From Jiangella muralis (GTDB lineage Bacteria > Actinomycetota > Actinomycetes > Jiangellales > Jiangellaceae): DNA of 64,000 nucleotides. The stretch spans positions 232,322 through 296,321 of the forward strand of contig NZ_KQ434754.1 in NCBI RefSeq assembly GCF_001270745.1. Reading direction: 5' to 3'. The translations under genes and the position numbers were made by a program. The notes under the pieces were generated by a model. It worked only from the letters and a program-made list of their open reading frames with translations, ran no database searches and was not told where the DNA came from. Shown piece by piece: positions 7,477 to 55,133 of the stretch (the stretch's first letter is position 1; each line of letters starts with the position of its first letter).

Positions 7477-8433
7477 TCAGCGCGCCAGCTCGCGCAGGGC
7501 GCCGACGGCTGCGCGGGCGTCCGCGTCCGGTGGCGGGCGCATCCAGGCGTACGCCGAGCGCGGGAAGCGGTGACGGTAGAGGCCGGCGTAGGCGAGCTGG
7601 CTGTCGCGCGCGTTCTGCTCGGGCGTGACGTCCTCGCCGACGAGCAGCCGCGCCTCGTAGGAGAGGGCGATCCGGTCGGCGAGCCATTCCGGGACGTCCG
7701 CACGGGGCGCGGGGTGCGCGTGCGCCGCGGTGAGCAGCCGGTCGGCGAACGCGGGGTCGCGGTGCCGGCGGGCGCGGGCCTTGAAGAGGGTCCAGTAGCG
7801 CCCGAGCGAGCCGGCCCGCTCCCCCCAGCGTTCGGTCGCGACCTCGGCGATCGCGGTTGCGGCCTGCCGGACGACGATCCAGGCGCCGGTGGCGTCCCCG
7901 TCCGCCCGCCGTTCGGCCTCGGCGAGCGACCGGTCCGCGGCGGCCAGCCACGTCGTCACCCGCCGGCCGACGACGGCCTCGTCGAAGCGCCAGCGGGCGG
8001 ACAGCTCCAGCAGGGCCGACGCGACGCCGCCGTCGTCGCGGGCCGGGCGGCCGCCGTAGACCTTGTCGAGGCCATGCAGCCAGCGGTGGTCGTCCATGTG
8101 CCCGGCCGGGTCGCCGTCCACCTCGCCCACCTCGCCCGCGTCGAACGTCAGCCGCCCGGCGTCGACGGCCGTGTAGATGCCGCTGGTCCCCCACATCTCG
8201 CTCAGCTGGTAGGCGCACTGATCGACCTCGGCGGCCACGTCCGCGACCGGCCGCCCGGCGCTGACGACGATGAGGTCGAGGTCGCTGAGCGGCCAATGCT
8301 CGCCGCGCCCGAAGCTGCCGCCGAGCACCACCCCGGCCACGCCCGGGATCGCGCCCACCGCCGTCGCGGCCTCTTCCGCTCGGGCCGCCAGCCGGGTGCG
8401 CCAGTGCCGCAGCCGCGGATCGGTCTCCTGCAC
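7477..8433 (-). CDS. Nucleotidyltransferase-fold protein (KNTase-like)
   Basis: 318 residues. The motif GGSFGRGEHWPLSDLDLIVV near residue 38 is the GSxxxG ... DxD signature of the polymerase-beta/kanamycin nucleotidyltransferase fold, where the Asp pair binds Mg-NTP. A helical C-terminal region follows with no family I can name. Possible roles are nucleotidylation of a small molecule or a toxin-like NTase; no antitoxin is adjacent. GTG 8433 has GAGG five bases upstream. Directly upstream in the same direction is a 14-codon ORF derived from a deleted VOC gene copy (8441-8485), which may supply the promoter. Confidence 0.78.
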   Translation of the reverse strand: MQETDPRLRHWRTRLAARAEEAATAVGAIPGVAGVVLGGSFGRGEHWPLSDLDLIVVSAGRPVADVAAEVDQCAYQLSEMWGTSGIYTAVDAGRLTFDAGEVGEVDGDPAGHMDDHRWLHGLDKVYGGRPARDDGGVASALLELSARWRFDEAVVGRRVTTWLAAADRSLAEAERRADGDATGAWIVVRQAATAIAEVATERWGERAGSLGRYWTLFKARARRHRDPAFADRLLTAAHAHPAPRADVPEWLADRIALSYEARLLVGEDVTPEQNARDSQLAYAGLYRHRFPRSAYAWMRPPPDADARAAVGALRELAR

Positions 8434-8440
8434 GCGGGCC

Positions 8441-8485
8441 TCAGCTCAGCCGGGTGCGGACGAGTTCGGACCTGCGATACGCCAT
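8441..8485 (-). pseudogene. Internally deleted VOC gene remnant, now a 14-codon upstream ORF
   Basis: This segment and its flanks match both ends of the VOC gene at 8986-9357. The 3' part (8436-8460) matches 8982-9006, and the 5' part plus promoter (8461-8507) matches 9333-9379, with only a few substitutions. The central part of the gene, over 300 bp, is missing. The remaining frame is open from a conserved ATG to a conserved TGA and reads MAYRRSELVRTRLS; the intact gene begins MACRMSEL and ends LLRARLS. The TAGCGT -10 box seven bases before the ATG is retained, so the remnant may still be transcribed into the nucleotidyltransferase gene 7 bases downstream. Confidence 0.8.
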
Positions 8486-8669
8486 GGCACTCACGCTACA
8501 AGGGTCTCCAGCCTCCCGCTTTCATGACGGTCAGGTGTGAAGTCACAGTGAAGCAGAAATGAAACACCGCGGCCGTAGATTCGGCTACGAAGGAAACTGA
8601 GAACTCCGCCATCACTGGTGCGGGCGGCGCTACCTTGCTCGCGCCGAAAGCAAAGAGAAAGGATTGACG

Positions 8670-8927
8670 ATGATTCGTAGAGCCCGTAATTGGATGCTCC
8701 TGGTGCTGGCCACTACGCTCGGTGCCGTGGCGCTGACCTTCACCGGAACGCCCGATGCGATGGCTGGGACGGCTAAATACACCTGTCCGGCCGCCACCAT
8801 GACTCCAAGCGAATGCAAGGCCGTGTACAACCGGTTCAAGGCCAATGGGGTGCGGGTATGGGGATACCATTCGCCCTCCTGCACGTATTACTACTGCTAC
8901 GACGGCTACTTCTACTACGCCCGCTGA
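8670..8927 (+). CDS. Small secreted Cys/Tyr-rich protein, unknown
   Basis: 85 residues. A basic N-terminus and about 20 hydrophobic residues ending near AMAG form a Sec signal peptide. The mature part is about 50 residues with four Cys (KYTCPAATM, SECKAVY, SCTYYYC) and a tyrosine-rich tail YYYCYDGYFYYAR, which suggests two disulphides. AAAGGA is well placed six bases before ATG 8670; an in-frame TTG two codons earlier is less likely. The gene is visibly less GC-rich than its neighbours and lies between a VOC gene and that gene's deleted duplicate. No family recognised. Confidence 0.72.
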   Translation: MIRRARNWMLLVLATTLGAVALTFTGTPDAMAGTAKYTCPAATMTPSECKAVYNRFKANGVRVWGYHSPSCTYYYCYDGYFYYAR

Positions 8928-8985
8928 TCTCCGGGCTTGTTCAAAAGAGGTCCCTTCCGGGGGCGGCGATCCTGCACCCGGGGCC

Positions 8986-9357
8986 TCAACTCAGCCGGGC
9001 GCGGAGGAGGCAGAACTCGTTGCCCTCCGGGTCGGCCAGCACCTGCCACGACTCCTCGCCCGTCTGCCCGACGTCGGCCGGGCGCGCCCCGATGGCCAGC
9101 AGCCGTTCCAGCTCGGCGTCCTGGTCGCGGTCGGTGGCGTTGACGTCGAAGTGCAGCCGCAGCGGGCCCAGCTCGGGATCGTCCGTCTGACTGAGGATGA
9201 TGGTCGGCTGCAACCCGCCGAACCCCTCGCGCGGCCCGATCTCGATCCCGTCGTCCTCGGTGTCGAGCACGACGTAGTCGAGCACCTCGCACCAGAACGC
9301 CGCCAGCCGCTGCGGGTCGCGGCACTTGAGGATGAGTTCGGACATGCGACACGCCAT
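8986..9357 (-). CDS. VOC-family (glyoxalase-like) protein
   Basis: About 123 residues of one VOC module: LKCRDPQRLAAFWCEVLDYVV, a LRLHFDV strand, and a closing LADPEGNEFCLLRARLS. The latter pattern is common in actinobacterial 'glyoxalase-like' proteins of unknown substrate. ATG 9357 lies 7 bases after TAGCGT with no Shine-Dalgarno, indicating a leaderless mRNA and an N-terminus MACRMSEL. The internal ATG at 9345 (MSEL) is the alternative. The same promoter, ATG and gene ends occur in the deleted duplicate at 8441-8507. Confidence 0.82.
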   Translation of the reverse strand: MACRMSELILKCRDPQRLAAFWCEVLDYVVLDTEDDGIEIGPREGFGGLQPTIILSQTDDPELGPLRLHFDVNATDRDQDAELERLLAIGARPADVGQTGEESWQVLADPEGNEFCLLRARLS

Positions 9358-9383
9358 GGCACTCACGCTACAAGGGTCCGAAC

Positions 9384-9423
9384 ACACGTCGGGCCGGTCC
9401 TGTCTCGGACCGGCCCGACGTGT
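9384..9423 (-). terminator. Perfect hairpin downstream of tRNA-Ser(GCT)
   Basis: 17-bp perfect inverted repeat (9384-9400 and 9407-9423, arm ACACGTCGGGCCGGTCC) with a 6-base loop. It lies 14 bases beyond the 3' end of the tRNA and before the VOC promoter. There is no U-tract, as is usual for actinobacterial terminators. Confidence 0.75.
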
Positions 9424-9437
9424 TCGTGCTGGTGGTG

Positions 9438-9528
9438 CGGAGGCGGCGGGATTTGAACCCGCGAGAGGGTTTGAGCCCTCAACCCGCTTAGCAGGCGGGC
9501 GCCATAAACCGGGCTAGGCGACGCCTCC
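9438..9528 (-). tRNA. tRNA-Ser: tRNA-Ser (anticodon GCT)
   Basis: Cloverleaf read by eye on the minus strand: acceptor GGAGGCG/CGCCTCC with discriminator G, T-arm GCGGGTTCAAATCCCGC, anticodon stem CCCGC/GCGGG around loop CTGCTAA, and a long variable arm typical of serine tRNAs. The anticodon GCT decodes AGC/AGU. The CCA end is not encoded. A perfect hairpin follows as terminator. Confidence 0.95.
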
Positions 9529-9609
9529 ATGCCCGTTGGAGCACCAGGTGCAACAACCGGGCGACGCAAGGCTACCGTTCCGGCGCGGGAGACGGCAAAG
9601 TCGGGTGGT

Positions 9610-52817: not shown

Positions 52818-55133
52818 ATGATGGATGTGGAGCGCGCAGGCAGCAGCGGCACGCATCCCGGCGCCGCACGGCGCCGGGTGCGGGCGGGCCGGGCTCGTCT
52901 CGTAGGGCTCCTCGTGGCTTTCCTCGCCGTCCTCGCCCCGCTCCTGACCGCGTCCCCCGCGGCCGCCGAGACTCCGGCGCCGGCCACCACGTCCGACCCG
53001 CAACAGCGCGTCGTCCTCCTCGGCATCCCGGGCCTGTCCTGGCCCGACATCACCCCCGAGGGCATGCCGACGCTGTACGACCTGGCGGGCTCCGAGGCGG
53101 CCGGCTCGCTGACGGTGCGCACCGTCCGCACCCGCACCTGCGTGGTCGACGGCTGGCTGACGGTGAGCTCGGGGCGCCGCTCCACCGACCTCCAGGACAT
53201 CGACGCCGACGGCGGGGGCGACCGCTTCTGCCGCCAGCCGCCGGAGCCGACGTCCGCGCCGGACGGGCCGGGCGTCGTCGTGCCGGGCTGGGAACTGCTG
53301 CAGCAGCAACAGGAGGACAACTCCTACAACGCCGAGATCGGCCTGCTCGGCGACCGCCTGGCCGAGGCCGGGGTGTGCGCGACGGCCGTCGGCCCGGGCG
53401 CGGCGCTGGCGCTGGCCGACTCCACCGGGCGGGTCCCGTCGTACCACCAGAGCTCCGGCGACATCGGCGCCGGGCTGCTGAACGAGTGCCCGGTCACGGT
53501 CGTCGACCTCGGCGGGCTGCCGAACCCGGCCCCGAACGGCAGCGACGAGTTCGCCGACCAAGCCGCCCTCGACGCCCGCGCGCAGACCGCGGCCGTGATC
53601 GACCAGCAGGTCGAGCGCATCATCGACCAGCTGCCGCCCGACACCGCGCTGATGATCGCGGGTCTGTCCGACAGCGTCGGCACCACCATCCCGCTGCCGG
53701 ACGAGCCGACGCCGATCCCGCCGGCCGGGCTGCGGGCCGCGCTCGCCATGGGCCCGGTCGCCGACGGCGGCACCTTCGGGCCGAACTGGCTCACGTCGTC
53801 GTCCACGCTCTGGCCGGGCCTGGTGCAGCTGACCGACATCGCGCCGACGCTGCTCGCCTACGCCGGCGTCGAGGAACCGGCGAAGGACGTCGTCGGACGG
53901 CCGTGGCGGCCGGCCGGCCCGCACCCGGGCAGCTCCGCGGGCACGGTGTCCGAGCTGAACGGCGTCGACCGCGCGTCGGCGATCTACCGCGACCAGTCCG
54001 GGCCGTTCTTCCAGATCCTCGGCGGGCTGCTGGTGGTCGTGTGCGCGGCGGCGCTGCTGGCGCTGCTGCGCGGGGTCTCGTTCCGTCCCGCCGTCCTGCG
54101 CGTCGTGCAGGTGGTGGCCGTGCTCGTGGCGGCGGCGCCGGTGGCGTCGTACCTCGCCAACATCACCCGGTGGTGGCGCTACGACCAGCCGAACACCGTC
54201 CTGTGGACGTCGATCGTGGTGAGCACGCTGGCGTTGACGATCGTCGCGCTGGCCGGGCCGTGGCGGCGCCGGGCCTACGGTCCGCCGGGCGTGGTGGCCG
54301 GTGTCACGGCGACGGTGCTGGCGGTCGACGTCGCCAGCGGGTCGAGCCTCCAACAGTCCAGCCTGCTGGGGCTGTCGCCGCTGGTGGCCGGCCGGTTCTA
54401 CGGATTCGGCAACATCCCGTTCGCGATCTTCGTGGTGGCCAGCCTGGTGGCCGCGGCGGCGCTGGGCCAGTGGCTGCTCGACATCGGCAAGTCCCGCCGG
54501 CTCGCGGCGGGCGCGGTCGCCGCCGTCGGCATGATCGCCGTGGTCATCGACGGCGCGCCGCAGGCCGGCGCCGACGTCGGTGGCATCCTCGCCGCCATCC
54601 CCGGCTTCGCCGTCCTCGTGCTCGGCACCCTCGGCGCGCGCATCACCATCGCGAAGCTGGCGCTGGCCGCGCTCGGCGCGACGGCGCTGTTCGGCCTGTT
54701 CGCGTTCCTCGACTGGCTGCGCCCGCCCGGCTCGCGCACCCACTTCGGCAGCTTCTTCGCCGACCTGCTCTCCGGCGACGCGCTGACGGTGATCTTCCGC
54801 AAGGCCGAGGCGTCGCTCGGCACGCTGGAACGCTGGCCGATCTACGGCTGGCTGGTGCCGCTGGCGTACCTGCTGATCCTGTGGCTCATCCGGCCCGACG
54901 GCGAGAACGCGGTCAGCCGCACGGTGCAGCACTGGTCGCTGTTCCGGTACCTGGTGTGGGCGGCGCTGCTGACCGGCGCGGCCGGGTTCGCCGCCAACGA
55001 CTCCGGCATCATCGTGCCGGCGCTGCTGCTGACGGTCGGCGTGCCGCTGGGCATGGCGGCGGTGGCCGCGTCGCAAGGGGCGACGCCGGTGCCGTCACCC
55101 GCCGAGCGCGAGCTGCTGTCGCCGTCACCCTAG
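52818..55133 (+). CDS. Large membrane protein with alkaline-phosphatase-like exported domain
   Basis: 771 residues. A signal-anchor (about 27-48) is followed by a 350-residue extracytoplasmic domain of alkaline-phosphatase-like topology (VVLLGIPGLSWPDI, VDGWLTVSSGRRS, ALMIAGLSD, LVQLTDIAPTLLAYAG). About nine to ten membrane helices then run to residue 745. The metal-binding residues of true phosphatases are only partly recognisable, so catalysis is uncertain. Position next to pheA/serS recalls a conserved membrane protein of unknown function in other actinobacteria. TACGGT is 5 bases before ATG 52818; ATG 52821 is the alternative. Confidence 0.85.
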   Translation: MMDVERAGSSGTHPGAARRRVRAGRARLVGLLVAFLAVLAPLLTASPAAAETPAPATTSDPQQRVVLLGIPGLSWPDITPEGMPTLYDLAGSEAAGSLTVRTVRTRTCVVDGWLTVSSGRRSTDLQDIDADGGGDRFCRQPPEPTSAPDGPGVVVPGWELLQQQQEDNSYNAEIGLLGDRLAEAGVCATAVGPGAALALADSTGRVPSYHQSSGDIGAGLLNECPVTVVDLGGLPNPAPNGSDEFADQAALDARAQTAAVIDQQVERIIDQLPPDTALMIAGLSDSVGTTIPLPDEPTPIPPAGLRAALAMGPVADGGTFGPNWLTSSSTLWPGLVQLTDIAPTLLAYAGVEEPAKDVVGRPWRPAGPHPGSSAGTVSELNGVDRASAIYRDQSGPFFQILGGLLVVVCAAALLALLRGVSFRPAVLRVVQVVAVLVAAAPVASYLANITRWWRYDQPNTVLWTSIVVSTLALTIVALAGPWRRRAYGPPGVVAGVTATVLAVDVASGSSLQQSSLLGLSPLVAGRFYGFGNIPFAIFVVASLVAAAALGQWLLDIGKSRRLAAGAVAAVGMIAVVIDGAPQAGADVGGILAAIPGFAVLVLGTLGARITIAKLALAALGATALFGLFAFLDWLRPPGSRTHFGSFFADLLSGDALTVIFRKAEASLGTLERWPIYGWLVPLAYLLILWLIRPDGENAVSRTVQHWSLFRYLVWAALLTGAAGFAANDSGIIVPALLLTVGVPLGMAAVAASQGATPVPSPAERELLSPSP

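Follow-up and report, generated by a model that had tools for sequence, protein, structure and literature searches.

A 14-codon ORF located directly ahead of a nucleotidyltransferase (NTase) gene in Jiangella muralis is an internally deleted copy of a VOC gene, both ends of which are retained while the middle is absent, and a related species (G004) carries the intact VOC gene at that very position. In the reading we prefer, with a probability of about 0.6, the VOC gene at the head of a VOC–NTase operon collapsed to a mini leader cistron, and selection for NTase expression kept its promoter, its start and its junction of stop codon and Shine–Dalgarno (SD) sequence. The features of the locus are listed in Table 1; the window denotes the whole stretch of DNA analyzed, 64,000 nucleotides in length, and 12 genomes of the genus were compared, with J. 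muralis as G000.

Table 1. Features of the VOC–NTase locus of J. muralis (positions in the window).
Feature	Position	Strand	Evidence or remark
NTase gene, 318 aa, GTG start	7477–8433	minus	Pfam NTP_transf_2, 4.4e-6, above cut-off
Stop/SD junction TGAGGCCCGC	8434–8443	minus	TGA overlaps GAGG; GAGG 5 nt before NTase GTG
14-codon VOC remnant MAYRRSELVRTRLS*	8441–8485 (8485 -> 8441)	minus	330-bp in-frame internal deletion vs. VOC; candidate leaderless leader cistron
-10 element TAGCGT of the remnant	8493–8498	minus	7 nt before ATG; identical to the -10 of VOC
Low-GC insert between the two VOC copies	8507–8969		58.6% GC vs. 73% in the window; borders from alignment
Orphan small peptide gene	8664–8927	plus	ORF; opposite strand to VOC and NTase; secretion-signal-like N-terminus by eye
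NTase-start footprint (..GTGCAGGA) behind the intact VOC stop	8970–8985	minus	TGAGGCCCCGGGTGCAGGA vs. TGAGGCCCGCGTGCAGGA
Intact leaderless-type VOC gene, 123 aa	8986–9357	minus	Pfam Glyoxalase_6 PF18029, 6.5e-24
-10 element TAGCGT of the intact VOC	9365–9370	minus	sequence; 23-mer search
tRNA-Ser(GCT)	9437–9528	minus	ARAGORN; upstream edge of the variable segment

When the remnant region was aligned with the intact VOC gene, minus-strand positions 8426–8506 matched both ends of the gene, with 330 bp (110 codons) missing in frame between them. The alignment scored 109, far above the maximum of 44 obtained in 500 first-order Markov randomizations, confirming the preliminary description, which had reported a match of 8436–8507 to both VOC ends with more than 300 bp of the middle lost and with TAGCGT, ATG, frame and TGA all kept. 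In detail, the 5′ match comprised GACCCTTGTAGCGTGAGTGCCATGGCGT (28/28 identical) followed by two mismatches up to the deletion, and the 3′ match extended over ~39 columns with four mismatches and one 1-nt gap, reaching the beginning of the NTase gene at 8426 and, in the intact copy, passing the VOC stop as far as 8970, which is farther at this end than previously described. Outside the identical 28 bases, six mismatches and the 1-nt gap were thus found in ~53 columns; the difference between promoter plus start (0/28 changed) and the rest (6/53) was not significant (p ~0.07, our own arithmetic on the alignment). The remnant peptide sequence looks unconstrained, because both substitutions among its first eight codons are nonsynonymous. 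As previously described, the mini-ORF ends 7 nt before the NTase GTG (8433) on the same strand.

The genome was then searched for further copies. A 141-bp query retrieved only itself and the VOC gene at E<=1e-3 (VOC match, E=7e-15), and the promoter-plus-start 23-mer CTTGTAGCGTGAGTGCCATGGCG, with up to three mismatches allowed, occurred exactly twice in 7.27 Mb, with no control hits. These searches rule out a common motif shared by many unrelated promoters as the source of the match.

The intact VOC protein scored 85.1 bits against Glyoxalase_6 PF18029 (cut-off 23.6), placing it in the VOC superfamily, and is 90% identical to the VOC of G004. The range of 8982–9379 formerly given for this gene holds for the homologous block (8970–9378), which includes the promoter and the NTase-start footprint, but not for the coding sequence, which is shorter (Table 1). 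Behind its own stop codon the intact copy carries the first 8 nt of the NTase gene, and the duplication therefore spanned everything from the promoter to the beginning of the NTase; the block extends from GACCCTTG upstream of the -10 element to the NTase start (8970–9378 and 8426–8506). The intact VOC looks native, since VOC and NTase share the same synonymous distance to G004 (dS of 0.20 and 0.21, respectively); a foreign origin of this gene was considered and is needless, its dS being equal to that of the NTase. Judged by position, the remnant stands in the place of the former operon-head gene, and it is the intact VOC that has been displaced. The 3′ end of the remnant is identical to that of the G004 VOC over CCGCACCCGGCTGAGCTGAGGCC, and the intact J. 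muralis copy differs at two of these places. Upstream of the remnant, GGAGACCC resembles GGAGACCG of the NTase, sharing a GACC microhomology; with a chance probability of ~2–4%, this is only suggestive of a tandem-duplication junction formed via GACC.

The two copies are separated by the low-GC insert with the small peptide gene, whose location between them had been pointed out before and was verified here. The predicted peptide has 85–87 aa and a Tyr/Cys-rich C-terminus, and its gene has a GC content of 59% within the 73% window. No homologue was detected in the 11 other genomes of the genus or in 394 other genomes of the class, and no Pfam family scored above the cut-off.

Orthologues of the NTase (84–91% identity) are present in three of the 11 other genus genomes, that is, in 4 of 12 including J. 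muralis, and none was found in the family beyond these four. Among contigs of other genomes, the only relative was a partial one in Actinopolymorpha alba, lacking a readable start region, and a sequence search of the PDB yielded no homologue. With a dN/dS of ~0.25 relative to its two nearest orthologues, the gene is under purifying selection. Its reading frame is closed five codons upstream of the GTG, and the NTase must therefore initiate internally.

The three relatives carrying the NTase differ in what precedes it. In G004, the NTase is immediately preceded by an intact leaderless VOC gene, with the VOC TGA 8 nt before the NTase GTG and TGAGG at the junction as in J. muralis. The NTase therefore stood second in an operon led by VOC, and no promoter was captured; the earlier proposal that the NTase had acquired a duplicated promoter is thereby ruled out, since the gene already stood behind that promoter, and the history of the remnant is better explained by the collapse of an operon-head gene. 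In G010, the NTase is preceded by TAGCGT, 6 nt and a GTG, followed by 50 bp of VOC sequence (90% identity; L044:10590–10760). The frame is open from this upstream GTG into the NTase, giving an open frame of 341 aa with a predicted leaderless extension of 22 codons, of which about a dozen retain the frame of VOC (IGARPADVGQ.GE), and the VOC breakpoints differ from those in J. muralis. In a tree of the 8-kb flank, G004 and G010 grouped together with G000 outside (support 1.0; 135 sites vs. 24 and 28), and therefore the VOC genes of G010 and J. muralis collapsed independently, after an operon-bearing ancestor. The TAGCGT promoter was kept in both collapsed lineages. In the outgroup G008, the NTase directly follows the tRNA-Ser terminator and carries a leaderless-type start of its own (TAGGCT, 7 nt, ATG).

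In actinobacterial leaderless genes, TANNNT has been reported ahead of the start codon (PMC3160421). Taking as a leaderless promoter a TANNNT whose first T lies ~12 bp before the start, the remnant carries such an element, TAGCGT being followed by 7 nt and ATG with the first T at -13. Across these genomes TANNNT is over-represented 6–7 nt before candidate starts, with 5 and 9 cases in the window, compared with ~1.5 at other spacings, and 8 and 10 cases in a larger set, in agreement with the published leaderless genes. A scan of 8350–9600 detected no sigma-70 consensus promoter that includes a -35 element. The -35 regions of the two VOC copies are not common to both, which probably matters little given that mycobacterial -10 motifs occur without a conserved -35 motif (PMC3898074).

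The following course of events is proposed. The ancestor would have had an operon of two genes, leaderless VOC followed by NTase, located behind tRNA-Ser(GCT), an arrangement that persists in G004. In the J. muralis lineage, a block of ~410 bp that began at the VOC promoter and ended within the first codons of the NTase was probably duplicated, yielding the copies that the low-GC peptide gene now separates. The VOC copy heading the NTase would have been redundant beside the intact upstream VOC and may then have lost its 330 bp in frame, while the parts presumably of use to the NTase were kept, namely the -10 element, a start codon coinciding with the predicted 5′ end, and a stop codon overlapping the SD-like GAGG. 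A transcript predicted to start at the ATG (A at 8485) could immediately be translated as a 14-codon leaderless leader cistron, whose translation would most likely deliver ribosomes to the NTase start, either by termination–reinitiation or by local SD capture. A ribosome-delivering role towards the following gene has been proposed for short uORFs (PMC4633059; PMC12548453), and the role of leader minicistron for the NTase, already suggested in the preliminary description, is a plausible one for the remnant. As a caveat to the putative coupling, GAGG by itself could permit NTase initiation; further, a deletion has a 1/3 chance of an in-frame outcome, and this counts against the leader-cistron model, as do the occurrence of this exact remnant in a single genome and a leader RNA no more stable than shuffled sequences.

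That caveat leads to the main rival explanation, a possibility we take seriously without thinking it likely: the remnant may be kept only as a promoter, with the transcript starting from TAGCGT, the NTase being translated from its own GAGG/GTG, and translation of the 14 codons being irrelevant. Such a role is consistent with the nonsynonymous nature of both early substitutions, with the GAGG 5 nt ahead of the GTG and with the situation in G008 and G010, which reach the NTase without a separate minicistron. However, the start codon, the reading frame and the stop codon have all survived a deletion of 330 bp, and the overlap of stop and SD seen in the G004 operon has been preserved, which argues against a promoter-only role. 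The mini-ORF could also be neutral debris that is merely not yet erased, the NTase using another promoter or being barely expressed. The exact 14-codon remnant was indeed found in one genome only, and the insert could hold promoters missed by the consensus scan, which found none; but the purifying selection on the NTase, its reading frame closed five codons upstream of the GTG, the position of TAGCGT as the nearest leaderless-type -10, and the retention of the promoter in both independently collapsed lineages make this quite improbable.

Most improbable of all seems an attenuator uORF with codons sensing a substrate or an antibiotic. Arg accounts for 4 of the 14 codons, one of them being AGG, presumably a rare codon in the GC-rich J. 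muralis genome, but three of the four Arg codons were inherited from VOC. The stability of the leader RNA was no greater than that of shuffled sequences, giving no signal of an unusual fold, and no terminator-like site was found, both of which speak against attenuation; cysteine-rich leaderless uORFs in mycobacteria provide a precedent for it (PMC4633059).

The collapsed VOC gene, read as a leader cistron, resembles the leaderless uORFs and small proteins at mycobacterial operon heads (PMC4633059) in its TANNNT-type promoter, its start at the predicted 5′ end and its position as a short ORF just upstream of a longer gene. It differs from them in that its origin as a collapsed copy of a full-length operon-head gene is visible. 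With translationally coupled gene pairs and ribosome-delivering short ORFs, including engineered bicistronic designs (PMC12548453), it shares a short first cistron, a small stop-to-start distance and an SD overlapping the upstream cistron, whereas the J. muralis case is natural, was made by internal deletion, and its coupling is putative. MIRU, a mobile repeat, inserts at start codons and couples its own ORF to the next gene with overlapping stop and start (PMC12548453); here too a small ORF stands ahead of a gene whose expression is not abolished, but MIRU joins by insertion and the J. muralis mini-ORF is the remnant of a deletion. As in the ordinary duplication and decay of a redundant copy, an intact and a decayed copy lie near each other in the same orientation; in contrast to such decay, the parts spared were precisely those ends that can serve the gene downstream, and the same gene collapsed differently in a related species. 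A literature search on bacterial uORFs as gene remnants found no matching report among the papers listed.

Many leaderless mini-ORFs are predicted before longer genes in actinobacteria, and their origin is rarely visible. The four related genomes offer a candidate series of a full first gene, a 14-codon in-frame collapse, an in-frame fusion and a directly leaderless next gene, and thereby outline a testable path by which a real gene can turn into a leader ORF, on the scale of one locus. Should the route be general, it would be a way of birth for many leaderless uORFs of actinobacteria. We consider it rather unlikely, however, that this is a rule, whereby leaderless genes at operon heads would tend to disappear by shrinking to mini leader cistrons or by becoming N-terminal extensions of their downstream neighbor, because promoter, start and stop/SD junction serve the latter.

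The surroundings of the locus are variable. The tRNA-side flank was matched in all 12 genomes of the genus, and tRNA-Ser(GCT) occupies the same position in G008 and G010, but the stretch from this tRNA gene to the conserved genes beyond the NTase contains a HIT protein gene in G004, a GNAT gene in G010, the peptide and VOC genes in J. muralis, and nothing in G008. Almost every genome of the genus has a different set of genes downstream of tRNA-Ser(GCT) (loci L053–L060), which marks a variable hot spot; genes come and go here, making a duplication followed by decay unsurprising. In G004 (C4:1065850–1081930; loci L050 and L043), tRNA-Ser(GCT) is split by an element of ~15 kb with a tyrosine-recombinase (Phage_integrase) gene; a 60-bp exact tRNA repeat lies at its far end, and RelE/HigB-like and HTH-like ORFs were recognized by eye at its VOC-side end. 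A second tRNA-Ser(GCT) was predicted by ARAGORN on the plus strand of the window at 54020–54096; at 77 nt it is shorter than a usual serine tRNA and is possibly a partial copy or a misidentification.
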